The notes beneath the pieces are model-generated. The model was not told the DNA's origin. It was given only the letters and a program-made list of their open reading frames with translations, and made no database searches. Made by a program: the position numbers and the translations under genes. 52,859 bases of DNA, from positions 1 to 52,859 of the forward strand of contig CALUWL010000006.1 in assembly GCA_944324445.1 (NCBI GenBank). The letters are read 5' to 3'. The DNA comes from Candidatus Gastranaerophilales bacterium. Lineage in GTDB: Bacteria; Cyanobacteriota; Vampirovibrionia; Gastranaerophilales; Gastranaerophilaceae. Positions 1 to 52,859 of this stretch are shown here, one piece after another; the first letter of the stretch is position 1; every line of letters begins with the position of its first letter.

Positions 1-41
1 GCCGAGAAAAAGTTGCCCCAATGGGCAAGTTTTTCGAGAGG
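1..41. other. Left-edge hairpin related to the downstream repeat
   Basis: A stem of TTGCCC (13-18) and GGGCAA (23-28) with loop CAAT is extended by five A (7-11) facing five T (30-34). The outer flanks, GCCGAGAAAAA at 1-11 and TTTTTCGAGAGG at 30-41, also occur in the reverse complement of the 120-bp repeat at 211-535, around a different apical hairpin. It is therefore a relative of that repeat in opposite orientation. It may belong to an RNA gene that starts left of the window; that cannot be decided here. Confidence 0.5.
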
Positions 42-45
42 TAAG

Positions 46-67
46 AACCGGAGGTTCGACTCCGGTT
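46..67. other. Palindromic hairpin resembling a T-arm
   Basis: AACCGGAG (46-53) pairs perfectly with CTCCGGTT (60-67) around the loop GTTCGA. The GGTTCGACTCC string resembles a tRNA or tmRNA T-arm, and the tRNA-Leu that follows has the same TTCGACT loop. The base pairing does not fit a normal 5-bp stem with a 7-nt loop, and no acceptor stem can be built because the 5' part lies outside the window. It may be the 3' end of an RNA gene cut by the window, or a scrambled duplicate of the tRNA-Leu T-arm. Confidence 0.35.
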
Positions 68-93
68 TCATTAAAAAATTAGGCATAAAAATA

Positions 94-120: not shown

Positions 121-134
121 GTTTTGATAATATT

Positions 135-220
135 TGCCGATGGCCGGAGTCGAACCGGCACGTGGGGTGAACCACGCCAGATTTTGAGTCTGGTGCGTCT
201 ACCAATTTCGCCACATCGGC
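135..220 (-). tRNA. tRNA-Leu (anticodon CAA)
   Basis: This is an 86-base type II tRNA decoding UUG. The acceptor stem pairs GCCGATG (minus-strand 5' end at 220) with CATCGGC, and the discriminator is A at 135. The anticodon stem is CCAGA/TCTGG with loop CTCAAAA, giving anticodon CAA. The long variable arm expected for leucine tRNA is present (CGTGG...CCACG), and the T-arm is GCCGG-TTCGACT-CCGGC. The 3' CCA is not encoded. The first ten bases of the tRNA and its upstream leader are copied several times in the adjoining tandem repeat. Confidence 0.95.
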
Positions 221-535
221 ACATTATTTAATTGTCAATTTAGTTTATTTCTTTGTTGATGTGGCGAAGCAATCGCTTAAGCTTTTGCCCTCTCGAAAAA
301 AGATACTTAATCTTTTTTCTCGGCAGAGTGCCACATCGGCACATTATTTAATTGTCAATTTAGTCTATTTCTTTGTTGATGTGGCGAAGCAATCGCTTAA
401 GCTTTTGCCCTCTCGAAAAAAGATACTTAATCTTTTTTCTCGGCAGAGTGCCACATCGGCACATTATTTAATTGTCAATTTAGTCTATTTCTTTGTTGAT
501 GTGGCGAAGCAATCGCTTAAGCTTTTGCCCTCTCG
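211..535. repeat. 120-bp tandem repeat seeded on the tRNA-Leu 5' end
   Basis: Copies run 211-330, 331-450 and 451-535 (third copy truncated). Copies one and two differ at a single seen base (T245 versus C365). Each copy begins with the complement of the first ten bases of tRNA-Leu (CCACATCGGC) followed by its leader. Inside each unit GATGTGGC (258-265 in copy one) is inverted relative to GCCACATC (330-337), and a perfect 10-bp hairpin GAAAAAAGAT/ATCTTTTTTC with loop ACTTA lies at 295-319. The long reading frame through it is a by-product of a period divisible by three, not a gene. Confidence 0.9.
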
Positions 536-663
536 GGTGGTACGGTCTTGCGTGCTCTGCGCCAAGTTCAACACTTGCCGCTATCGCACTTCGCACACCT
601 TTGCCCTCGTCTTCATTTGCTAAGTTTGCTGTTGCAAACTATAGCTCATTCGACTCAGGTTTA
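536..663. other. GC-rich patch between repeat copies, no gene seen
   Basis: Where the third repeat copy breaks off at 536, about 125 bases follow that are clearly richer in G and C than the surrounding AT-rich DNA, especially 536-635. Short frames are open on both strands but none has a ribosome site or recognisable product. Together with the repeats this fills the 493-base gap between tRNA-Leu and gatB. It may be an insertion or a remnant of a transferred segment. Confidence 0.5.
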
Positions 664-689
664 CCACATCGGCGATTATTTAATTGTCA
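664..689. repeat. Partial fourth copy of the tRNA-Leu leader repeat
   Basis: CCACATCGGC at 664-673 is followed by ATTATTTAATTGTCA, matching the start of the 120-bp unit except for GATT in place of ACATT. It marks the far edge of the repeat region just before the end of gatB. Confidence 0.8.
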
Positions 690-691
690 TA

Positions 692-719
692 AAATAATTC
701 TACTATAAAAGAATTATTT
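692..719 (-). terminator. AT-rich hairpin over the gatB stop codon
   Basis: AAATAATTCT (692-701) and AGAATTATTT (710-719) form a perfect 10-bp stem with loop ACTATAAA. The gatB stop codon (714-716) is inside the stem. The stem is weak because it is nearly all A-T, and the following T-run is short, so termination is plausible but not certain. Confidence 0.4.
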
Positions 720-2159
720 GTCCAACTCATCTTTTAATAATTTGTTTAATATTTGCGGATTAGCTCTGCCTTTTGTTTCTTTCATAGCCTGACCTACAAA
801 GAAACCAAATAGCTTGTCTTTACCGCCTTTATAGGCTGCAACTTGTTCAGGATTTGCTGCTACAATTTTTTGAACAATTGCAAGAATTGAGGATTCATCT
901 GAAATAACCGATAATCCTTTTTTCTCAACTAAAGCTTTAGCATCTTCACCTGTTTTTAATATTTCTACAACAAGGCTTTTGGCGATATTATTTGAAATTG
1001 TTCCTTTTTTTAATAAATCAAGTAATTGAGCAAAATTATCAATCGTTAACTTTGAATCTTCAATTGAAATTTTCTCTTCTTTTAAGAATGCTGCAATTTC
1101 ACCTGTTAAGAAATTGGAAGCTGTTTTTGCATCCACATTTTTTTCTAAAAGTTTATCAAAATATAGAGCAAGTTCCATTTGATTTACTATAACGCCAGCA
1201 TCGTATTCACTTAGTCCTGCTTTTTTATATCTTTCCATTTTTTCATCAGGAAGTTCAGGCATTTTTGCTTTTATTTCATTTATCCAATCTTGTGAAATTT
1301 CAAGCGGCATTAAATCCGGTTCAGGAAAATATCTATAGTCATGAGCATCTTCTTTTCCTCTCATTGATGAGGTTGTGCCTGTGTTATCATCCCATAATCT
1401 TGTTTCTTGAATAACTTTTCCGCCTTCTTCTAAAATTTCAGCTTGTCGAATAAATTCATATTCAATTGCTCTAACCAGAGAGCGAAAACTGTTTACATTT
1501 TTGATTTCAGCACGTGTTCCAAATTCTTTTTGACCAATTGGACGAATTGAAATGTTGCAATCGGCTCTCATTGAACCTTCTTCAAGATTGCCATCGCAAA
1601 CGCCTATGTATCTCAATATATTTCTTAAAGTTTCAACATATTCCCTTGCTTCTTCGCTAGAGCGCATATCGGGTTCTGAAACAATTTCTAATAATGGCGT
1701 TCCTGCTCTATTTAGGTCAACCAATGAATAGCTTGAACCATATAAGCCTGCAGCACCGGCATGGACTAATTTTCCTGCATCTTCTTCAAGATGAGCTCTT
1801 GTGATTCCTATTTTTTTATTTGATATTTGTATCCAGCCGCCTTGGCAGATTGGCTCATCGTATTGAGAAATTTGATATCCTTTTGGCAGGTCAGGATAAA
1901 AATACTGCTTTCTGTCGAATTTGCAACGATTTGGAATGGTAGAATGCAGAGCTAATCCTGTTAAAATTGCCATATTAACACATTCTTTATTTAAAACAGG
2001 TAAAACTCCCGGCATGCCGAGTGTTACGGTTGAGGTTTCCGTGTTGGGGTTTTTACCGAATTCACAACCTTCTCTTGCAAAAATTTTAGTGTTGGTTTTA
2101 AGTTGGGCATGGACTTCTAAGCCTATTACCATTTCGTATTTATCTTTGTAATCCGACAT
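714..2159 (-). CDS. gatB: Asp-tRNA(Asn)/Glu-tRNA(Gln) amidotransferase subunit B
   Basis: GatB is the kinase/transfer subunit of the GatCAB complex, which turns mischarged Glu-tRNA(Gln) or Asp-tRNA(Asn) into the correct aminoacyl-tRNA using ammonia channelled from GatA. The frame shows the family opening VIGLEVHAQL, the DYRYFPEPDLMPL block, and a C-terminal tRNA-binding YqeY-like region over roughly the last 150 residues. I chose the ATG at 2159 (481 residues, usual length) because AAGGAGAT sits six bases upstream; an in-frame ATG at 2195 would add twelve residues with no ribosome site. gatA and gatC are not in the window. Its presence suggests that Gln-tRNA and/or Asn-tRNA is made by the indirect route here. 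Confidence 0.97.
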   Translation of the reverse strand: MSDYKDKYEMVIGLEVHAQLKTNTKIFAREGCEFGKNPNTETSTVTLGMPGVLPVLNKECVNMAILTGLALHSTIPNRCKFDRKQYFYPDLPKGYQISQYDEPICQGGWIQISNKKIGITRAHLEEDAGKLVHAGAAGLYGSSYSLVDLNRAGTPLLEIVSEPDMRSSEEAREYVETLRNILRYIGVCDGNLEEGSMRADCNISIRPIGQKEFGTRAEIKNVNSFRSLVRAIEYEFIRQAEILEEGGKVIQETRLWDDNTGTTSSMRGKEDAHDYRYFPEPDLMPLEISQDWINEIKAKMPELPDEKMERYKKAGLSEYDAGVIVNQMELALYFDKLLEKNVDAKTASNFLTGEIAAFLKEEKISIEDSKLTIDNFAQLLDLLKKGTISNNIAKSLVVEILKTGEDAKALVEKKGLSVISDESSILAIVQKIVAANPEQVAAYKGGKDKLFGFFVGQAMKETKGRANPQILNKLLKDELDK

Positions 2160-2292
2160 TTTATCTCCTTGATATTTTTTCTTATATATTAACATAAATA
2201 ATTTGTCATGCTTTATGATGCTTAATATTTTTTAAATTGAAAAGGCAATTTTTCATGTGTTTTGTTTTTTATTTTATAGTAAGGGAATTTTT

Positions 2293-52166: not shown

Positions 52167-52859
52167 TTATATTGCTTGCGGGTCAACTTTTTCTATTTTA
52201 CCTTTTGCATTGCGGACAAATTTTTCTGCCCAGCTTTCTGTTCCGTCTGGATTAGATTTAAAATCTTTTGTAAATCCGGAAAGTTTGTTGTCTGAATATA
52301 TGAAGTCTTCTGCCCAACTTGTTGTTCTGTCTGGATTCAATTTAAAATCTTTTGTAAATTCAGAAAGTTTGCCGTCTGAATATATGAAGTCTTCTGCGCA
52401 ACTTTGTGTTCCGTCTGGATGCCATTTATAATCTTTTGCGAATCTTAAAAGTTTGCCGTCTGAATAATCGAAACTTTCCGCCACGCTTCCTGTTCCGTCT
52501 GCATTTTGTGTAATACCTTTGCCTATTCCTCTTATTTCAAGATTATCAGGGTTAAAATATGTTTGTCTTAAAATTTTATCCCCATCTAATTCATCCATTA
52601 TTTTTTCTGCACCTTCAGCACTTGTATCATCAACAAATCTTCTTATGGTTTTGCCTGATTCATCAACAACATCTTTGAAACCTTCTTCTTTTGCTTTTTT
52701 TAATATCTCCATAATTTCATCATATTGTTTTTGCGCTTCAACTTTGATTTCTTCTGCAGTTTTTTGAATTTTTTTGCTTTCTCTTAAAATTTCGTTTGCT
52801 TGTTGTTCGATTTTACCTTTAAAACTTATCTTTCCTGTTTTAATTGCAAAAATTAAACC
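52167..52859 (-). CDS. Partial protein with 28-residue tandem repeats (5' end beyond window)
   Basis: The frame is open from the right edge to a TAA at 52167-52169 (230 residues seen, start outside). The visible N-terminal part reads IKTGKISFKGKIEQ, with the SFKG motif seen also at 42845-43852, then a coiled-coil stretch (about residues 17-70) and C-terminal repeats of the form S-x-AE-x-F-x-YSD-x-KL-x2-F-x-KD-x-K-x2-PD. Three full 28-residue units and a trailing partial unit are present. The repeat loosely recalls MORN/YwqK-type beta-repeats, but I would not assign a family. No function can be given. Confidence 0.8.
   Translation of the reverse strand, partial: GLIFAIKTGKISFKGKIEQQANEILRESKKIQKTAEEIKVEAQKQYDEIMEILKKAKEEGFKDVVDESGKTIRRFVDDTSAEGAEKIMDELDGDKILRQTYFNPDNLEIRGIGKGITQNADGTGSVAESFDYSDGKLLRFAKDYKWHPDGTQSCAEDFIYSDGKLSEFTKDFKLNPDRTTSWAEDFIYSDNKLSGFTKDFKSNPDGTESWAEKFVRNAKGKIEKVDPQAI
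52236..52487 (-). repeat. Three 84-bp tandem repeats in the right-edge gene
   Basis: Units are at 52404-52487, 52320-52403 and 52236-52319 (gene order), each coding 28 residues. The last two are most alike, including the shared GAATATATGAAGTCTTCTGC on the plus strand. Unit number may vary among strains. Confidence 0.85.

Follow-up and report, generated by a model that had tools for sequence, protein, structure and literature searches.

The DNA analysed here, referred to as the window, is a stretch of 52,859 nucleotides that constitutes the entire contig C6 of a 1.8-Mb assembly in 96 contigs from a Candidatus Gastranaerophilales bacterium. The window encodes a GatB protein with 90-91% identity to those of RUG14156 and BRZ_SF bin21, and 80% identity to that of Candidatus Galligastranaerophilus intestinavium, which belongs to Candidatus Gastranaerophilaceae according to NCBI. 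The gatB gene (714-2195, minus strand) was named from its translation and from relatives. Downstream of gatB there is an intact tRNA-Leu(CAA) gene (134-221, minus strand), detected by ARAGORN and by the Rfam model RF00005 with 61.4 bits, and the gap between the two genes is occupied by a repeat array. At the other side of the window, positions 52224-52505 contain a separate 84-bp tandem repeat, with about three copies that are 80-86% alike.

The array was delimited with TRF at 210-535, with a period of 120 bp, 2.7 copies and 99% matches, in agreement with the 120-bp tandem repeat described in an earlier sequence-only reading of this DNA. Its copy number is uncertain because it is located only about 210 bp from the contig end. 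In a repeat search, unit copies begin at 210, 330 and 450, and ATTATTTAATTGTCA recurs at 675-689. In the sense of the tRNA, each unit is composed of the leader (U), approximately the first 11 tRNA nucleotides (d), a hairpin repeat termed E1 (ACTCTGCCGA-hairpin-GAGAGG), a second hairpin and an inverted piece of the tRNA (D'), and the last D' is followed by U and the intact tRNA. In this direction, the whole region contains four U-d copies with three inserts between them. In the two tRNA-proximal inserts, E1 is accompanied by the second hairpin and by D', which copies GATGTGGCGAA in inverted orientation. The tail is shared by the outermost insert, where a dispersed repeat, E3, takes the position of E1.

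The U-d copy of the real tRNA is found at 210-238 (minus strand); an exact direct repeat of 35 bp links it to the copies at 330 and 450, in line with the earlier claim that the unit copies the 5' end and leader of tRNA-Leu. Unit 1 includes D' (258-268, plus strand, where it reads as GATGTGGCGAA, with the inverted match TTCGCCACATC), the second hairpin (269-288, minus strand, assigned from the sequence and from the DNA fold of its equivalent in unit 2), E1 (289-329, minus strand, pattern match) and a U-d copy (330-358, minus strand, direct-repeat match). Unit 2 includes D' and the second hairpin (378-408, minus strand, from the sequence and the DNA fold), E1 (409-449, minus strand, pattern match) and a U-d copy (450-478, minus strand, direct-repeat match). 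Both units are bounded by the 35-bp exact direct repeats and differ by a single base, T to C within TTTAGTYTATTTC, so that their amplification looks recent, as had been proposed. The nested inverted repeat GATGTGGC...GCCACATC and the 10-bp hairpin GAAAAAAGAT/ATCTTTTTTC were also recovered, and the suggested search for hairpins flanked by GATGTGGC...GCCACATC gave four occurrences in the own genome. The third unit retains only the tail (D' and second hairpin, 498-528, minus strand, from the sequence), and its hairpin has been swapped for E3 (about 529-663, minus strand), a repeat present elsewhere in the own genome. When positions 530-675 were used as query, E3 was found in 10 further places of this genome at E ≤ 1, of which one is marginal, with 15 nt and E 0.79. 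The fourth leader copy reported at 664 corresponds to the outermost U-d copy (664-689, minus strand, repeat match), which contains the native leader and 10 tRNA nucleotides.

This tRNA-Leu(CAA) also has a mirror-image unit at its 3' end, formed by positions 1-41 of the window and the matching end of contig C34. The E1 of this unit (1-41, plus strand) is cut by the contig start, and the full pattern is found on contig C34. Its D' is located at 50-68 (plus strand) and repeats the tRNA T-arm in inverted orientation, with a 13-bp perfect inverted repeat between 53-65 and 144-156. The contrast that had been drawn with element integration at tRNA 3' ends fails, since 3' ends are affected as well, including that of this tRNA-Leu.

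The distribution of E1 was analysed with the search pattern CTCTGCCGA-N12-40-GAGAGG, and the reversed pattern was used as control. The 28 genomes of the genus gave 116 matches, with E1 present in 28/28, and the reversed control gave 0. In a sample across the order, E1 was found in 257 of 286 genomes (253/264 of this family and 4/22 of other families), and the highest number of copies per genome among the order matches listed was 86. A restriction of the trait to the genus was considered and is wrong, because E1 is family-wide and the outgroup genome G033 itself holds three copies. Regarding the slippage or hairpin-driven amplification previously suggested, the hairpin is indeed central, but a local slippage accident does not hold, since the E1 family occurs in every genome of the genus set; local slippage alone is ruled out by the same architecture at many tRNAs and genomes.

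The placement of E1 with respect to tRNA genes is highly regular. A tRNA is located ahead of E1 within 800 bp in 77 of the 116 units, 5' ends accounting for 29 of them and 3' ends for 48; of the 39 units without a tRNA ahead, 29 are no more than 800 bp away from a contig end. A recognisable tRNA end directly precedes E1 in 94 units, and in 66 of these 94 the tRNA sequence stops after exactly 12 nt by ARAGORN numbering, which for Leu means 11 mature nucleotides plus one leader base. The tRNA end represented in the prefix fits the strand on which the next tRNA lies in 63/65 cases. Both signs, a tRNA ahead and a tRNA-end prefix, are missing in 10/116 units, as counted from the listed exceptions, and a tRNA only behind E1 was found in 1/116. 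In an earlier set of 51 units, a tRNA was ahead within 700 bp in 37 and only behind in none. At loci from the order-wide search, 40 units were distributed as 30 with a tRNA ahead, 0 with a tRNA only behind and 10 without a tRNA ahead. Both tRNA ends are targeted in mirror image, with E1 pointing into the tRNA, in sense at 5' ends and in antisense at 3' ends. The inserts are short, between tens of bp and about two hundred bp, and no coding sequence was noticed in them. Copies of the E1 pattern without a nearby tRNA or tRNA end were observed at L405, L432, G006:C13, G006:C27, G009:C3 and G018:C33.

The tRNA end is duplicated beside these inserts. The direct copy of the own tRNA end scored above the 95th percentile of other tRNAs in 34/37 units. 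In the own genome (G000), inserts are bordered by exact tRNA-end copies at Lys(TTT) (32 bp), Met(CAT) (44 bp), Arg(TCT) (40 bp), Arg(ACG) (31 bp), Pro(TGG) (30 bp), Leu(CAA) (35 bp), Leu(TAG) (33 bp), Pro(GGG) (17 bp, and 31 bp at the 3' end) and Val(TAC) (28 bp, 3' end). Exact copies are present at both ends of Ile(GAT), with 34 bp (5') and 59 bp (3'). Downstream of this tRNA-Ile(GAT), on contig C69 (L094), a near full-length second tRNA-Ile with extra hairpins in its arms was observed, located between tRNA-Ile(GAT) and the 59 bp that repeat its 3' end and terminator.

By alignment score, a duplicated end was detected in 11/34 tRNAs of the own genome, 8/35 of G001 and 4/36 of G007, the tRNAs of the latter two being a retrieved subset. 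The total of 23/105 in these three genus genomes, compared with 9/1417 control sites located more than 450 bp from any tRNA in the same loci, is slightly high, because a few matches reflect neighbouring paralogous tRNAs; it includes tRNA-Ser(GCT) of G000 and G001, the G000 match being the T-arm of an adjacent tRNA-Ser, and tRNA-Asn of G007, counted by its alignment score. An earlier control, with sites too near the arrays, had given 7/219 in G000 and was replaced by the more distant set. In the outgroup genomes G033 and G045, 0/44 tested tRNAs (0/27 and 0/17) had duplicated ends.

The comparison of the gatB/tRNA-Leu locus in relatives, also suggested by the earlier reading, revealed no duplication, one or several, depending on the relative. 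The inserts differ, and each one is flanked by the leader of that species, which argues that the duplications are local events. The leader copies are species-specific and near identical inside one locus. In G007 the tRNA-Leu(CAA) has no unit at either end, and in L066 and L063 the 5' end of tRNA-Leu lacks the duplication and the 3' end carries arrays. Outside the genus, a tRNA after gatB was not found in most of the 50 GatB loci analysed, from 80 found.

The hairpin of E1 is conserved. The 36 distinct E1 sequences gave a mean core z of -5.7 versus mononucleotide shuffles, the stem sequence varies on both sides with pairing retained, and identical loop types are seen at different tRNAs. When one unit was folded as single-stranded DNA, a closed stem GATGTGGC/GCCACATC enclosing hairpins was predicted (z -3.9). 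The likeness of E1 hairpins within genomes was not clearly above that between genomes, as 92/1000 shuffles reached it in a test of 63 of the 116 sites, which were hand-picked with tandem and some near-duplicate copies omitted, and therefore it gives no support for recent E1 jumping. Homogenisation of the hairpins within genomes was likewise not significant in this shuffle test of 63 sites.

The inverted piece D' had a mean score of 9.3 against its own tRNA and 5.7 against other tRNAs, and it was above the 95th percentile in only 18/37 units. Plain insertion leaves D' unexplained. Several sites resemble a fold-back of the tRNA start that encloses a hairpin, and two loci from public genomes (L219 and L294) display the fold-back D' hairpin without the leader duplication. 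In the predicted RNA fold of window positions 134-300 (minus strand), the nearest D' pairs with the 5' part of the tRNA and replaces the acceptor stem of the cloverleaf.

The array is probably, although with modest confidence, a tRNA-end insertion site of E1, which would be a small palindromic element, non-autonomous and site-specific, whose entry duplicates the end of the tRNA. E1, with a core of about 39-46 bp plus the second hairpin, is carried by Candidatus Gastranaerophilaceae and would enter the tRNA gene at one set position, in most cases 11-12 nt within the mature 5' or 3' end, pointing into the gene. A direct duplication of the tRNA end and its leader or trailer, tens of bp long, goes with it and keeps an intact tRNA, and D' is often present as well. 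Mobility would be provided in trans, through some host or recombinase activity on DNA. The two near-identical 120-bp units would have been formed later, by unequal recombination or slippage between direct repeats, for which the 35-bp repeats would be enough. The underlying process probably acts on DNA, because both tRNA ends are affected in mirror image: if E1 had a sequence-specific role as RNA, this role could hardly be kept in both sense and antisense placement, and the arrangement would follow from a DNA process that reads the inverted repeat of the acceptor stem from either side. More tentatively, E1 may represent a new class of site-specific mobile element in bacteria. Such an element would recognise the end of the tRNA acceptor stem on the DNA, approached from either direction, and insert about 11 nt from that end; the gene end would be restored through a long local duplication with a fold-back, by a host or other enzyme, and the element would have no gene of its own.

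Candidate movers were searched in the 28 genus genomes, all of them carrying E1. The Y1 transposase (Y1_Tnp, PF01797) was found in 1/28 and the reverse transcriptase (RVT_1, PF00078) in 12/28, so neither a RAYT (Y1) nor a reverse transcriptase tracks E1 as a general mover. A retroelement or group II intron product is likewise not supported, with a reverse transcriptase present in 12 of these 28 E1-bearing genomes.

Fold-back template switching is a serious rival to insertion, even if it is considered rather unlikely. Replication stalled at a tRNA gene would snap back on the acceptor/D-arm hairpin, copy D' and resume upstream to give U-d-D'-U-tRNA, and the E1-like hairpins would be by-products or later passengers. 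This explanation has been kept because of the fold-back sites with hairpins, with palindromes enclosing other hairpins at Arg(TCT), Phe, Lys and the Leu of L062, L064, L222 and L223, and because of the fold-back without leader duplication in L219 and L294; the finding that no transposase tracks the trait (Y1_Tnp and RVT_1 tested) is also in its favour. However, it does not account for a single conserved E1 family with fixed ends, or for the 12-nt break in 66/94 units over many tRNAs.

The units could also be structured pre-tRNA leaders or trailers that control processing, with D' pairing to the tRNA start. Such a functional RNA is improbable, although across species D' follows which of two tRNA-Leu variants (GTGGCG or GTGATG) is present, its pairing with the 5' part of the tRNA is predicted in the RNA fold, and the hairpins retain their pairing. 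Against this proposal, E1 is in sense at 5' ends and in antisense at 3' ends, the tRNA-Leu(CAA) of G007 lacks units altogether, and the tRNA-Phe of G001 has changed while its D' stayed. In addition, tRNA was the sole Rfam family at gathering score in the window and six E1 loci, and a known structured RNA family other than tRNA was discarded on this basis. An assembly artefact, to which the position of the array at a contig end in a 96-contig assembly might point, is very improbable because the same architecture occurs at other tRNAs and mid-contig in many assemblies, including an array upstream of tRNA-Lys in the relative L425, with four E1 copies that follow each other at a spacing of 123 bp.

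Small palindromic repeats are common in bacteria, but none is known to us that is tied to the ends of tRNA genes at one fixed position, mirrored at both ends, with gene-preserving target copies of tens of bases. No description of tRNA-end-specific hairpin elements was found in the literature searched, whose coverage leaves out most subscription journals. The small dispersed repeats (SDR) of cyanobacteria are very small hairpin repeats from the same wider clade as the E1 hosts; to our knowledge, neither tRNA-end specificity nor gene-end duplication is known for them. Rickettsia palindromic elements (RPE) are dispersed palindromes that can lie in frame within genes. E3 of the own genome resembles them, as a dispersed repeat that in the one gene inspected, a peptidase M50 gene (L003:1268-2600, contig C7), is found in frame several times as repeated SELSESLASEGEG stretches. 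E1 differs from RPE in its location at tRNA gene ends, with duplication of the target end. In tRNA-integrating elements, which use tyrosine recombinases, direct repeats leave the tRNA whole after insertion. Direct repeats also keep the tRNA whole at E1 sites, but there the repeated sequence originates in the leader or trailer at the site itself, the 5' and the 3' ends of genes are both affected, and no coding sequence was noticed in the inserts.

GC-rich palindromes reportedly flank tRNA genes in Neurospora mitochondria. Mitochondrial hairpin elements (double-hairpin elements, sponge RHE and yeast GC clusters) are described in PMC2800124 and PMC4478555 as small, mobile and often near tRNA genes, with target duplications of 2-3 bp for yeast GC clusters and with intergenic hairpin sites. 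E1 is distinguished from them by the fixed site inside the tRNA gene, the long duplication and the bacterial host. REP/REPIN sequences with RAYT transposases, as presented in PMC3733652, which also treats RPE, are short palindromic hairpins with many copies, without genes and with tandem or composite forms, and E1 shares these features. The hallmark of REP/RAYT systems is a GTAG or CGTC tag beside the palindrome. A constant tag of this type was absent from the E1 ends in the listed contexts, where E1 starts with ACTCTGCCGA after the tRNA end and finishes with GAGAGG. E1 is also unlike REP/REPIN in being tied to tRNA ends with tens of bp of the target end duplicated, and unlike REP/RAYT in the scarcity of the Y1 transposase among its carriers. 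REP/RAYT, RPE, SDR and the mitochondrial hairpin elements may be regarded as similar in spirit to E1, as small gene-less hairpins.

With well over a hundred sites examined and many more counted across a bacterial family, E1 offers a test bed for the spread of gene-less hairpins and for the persistence of essential tRNA genes that are hit by insertions. In these gut bacteria, tRNA genes may be points where short-read assemblies break. The outer border of the 5' duplications is marked by TGAWAAYTRAATA, which was found in 26 places of the own genome versus 4 in the control (L326, L339 and L348 are examples). Nearly all of these places are leaders of tRNA genes or copies thereof, and TGAWAAYTRAATA also precedes an apparent tmRNA (L339) and an apparent small SRP RNA (L348), both named by eye.
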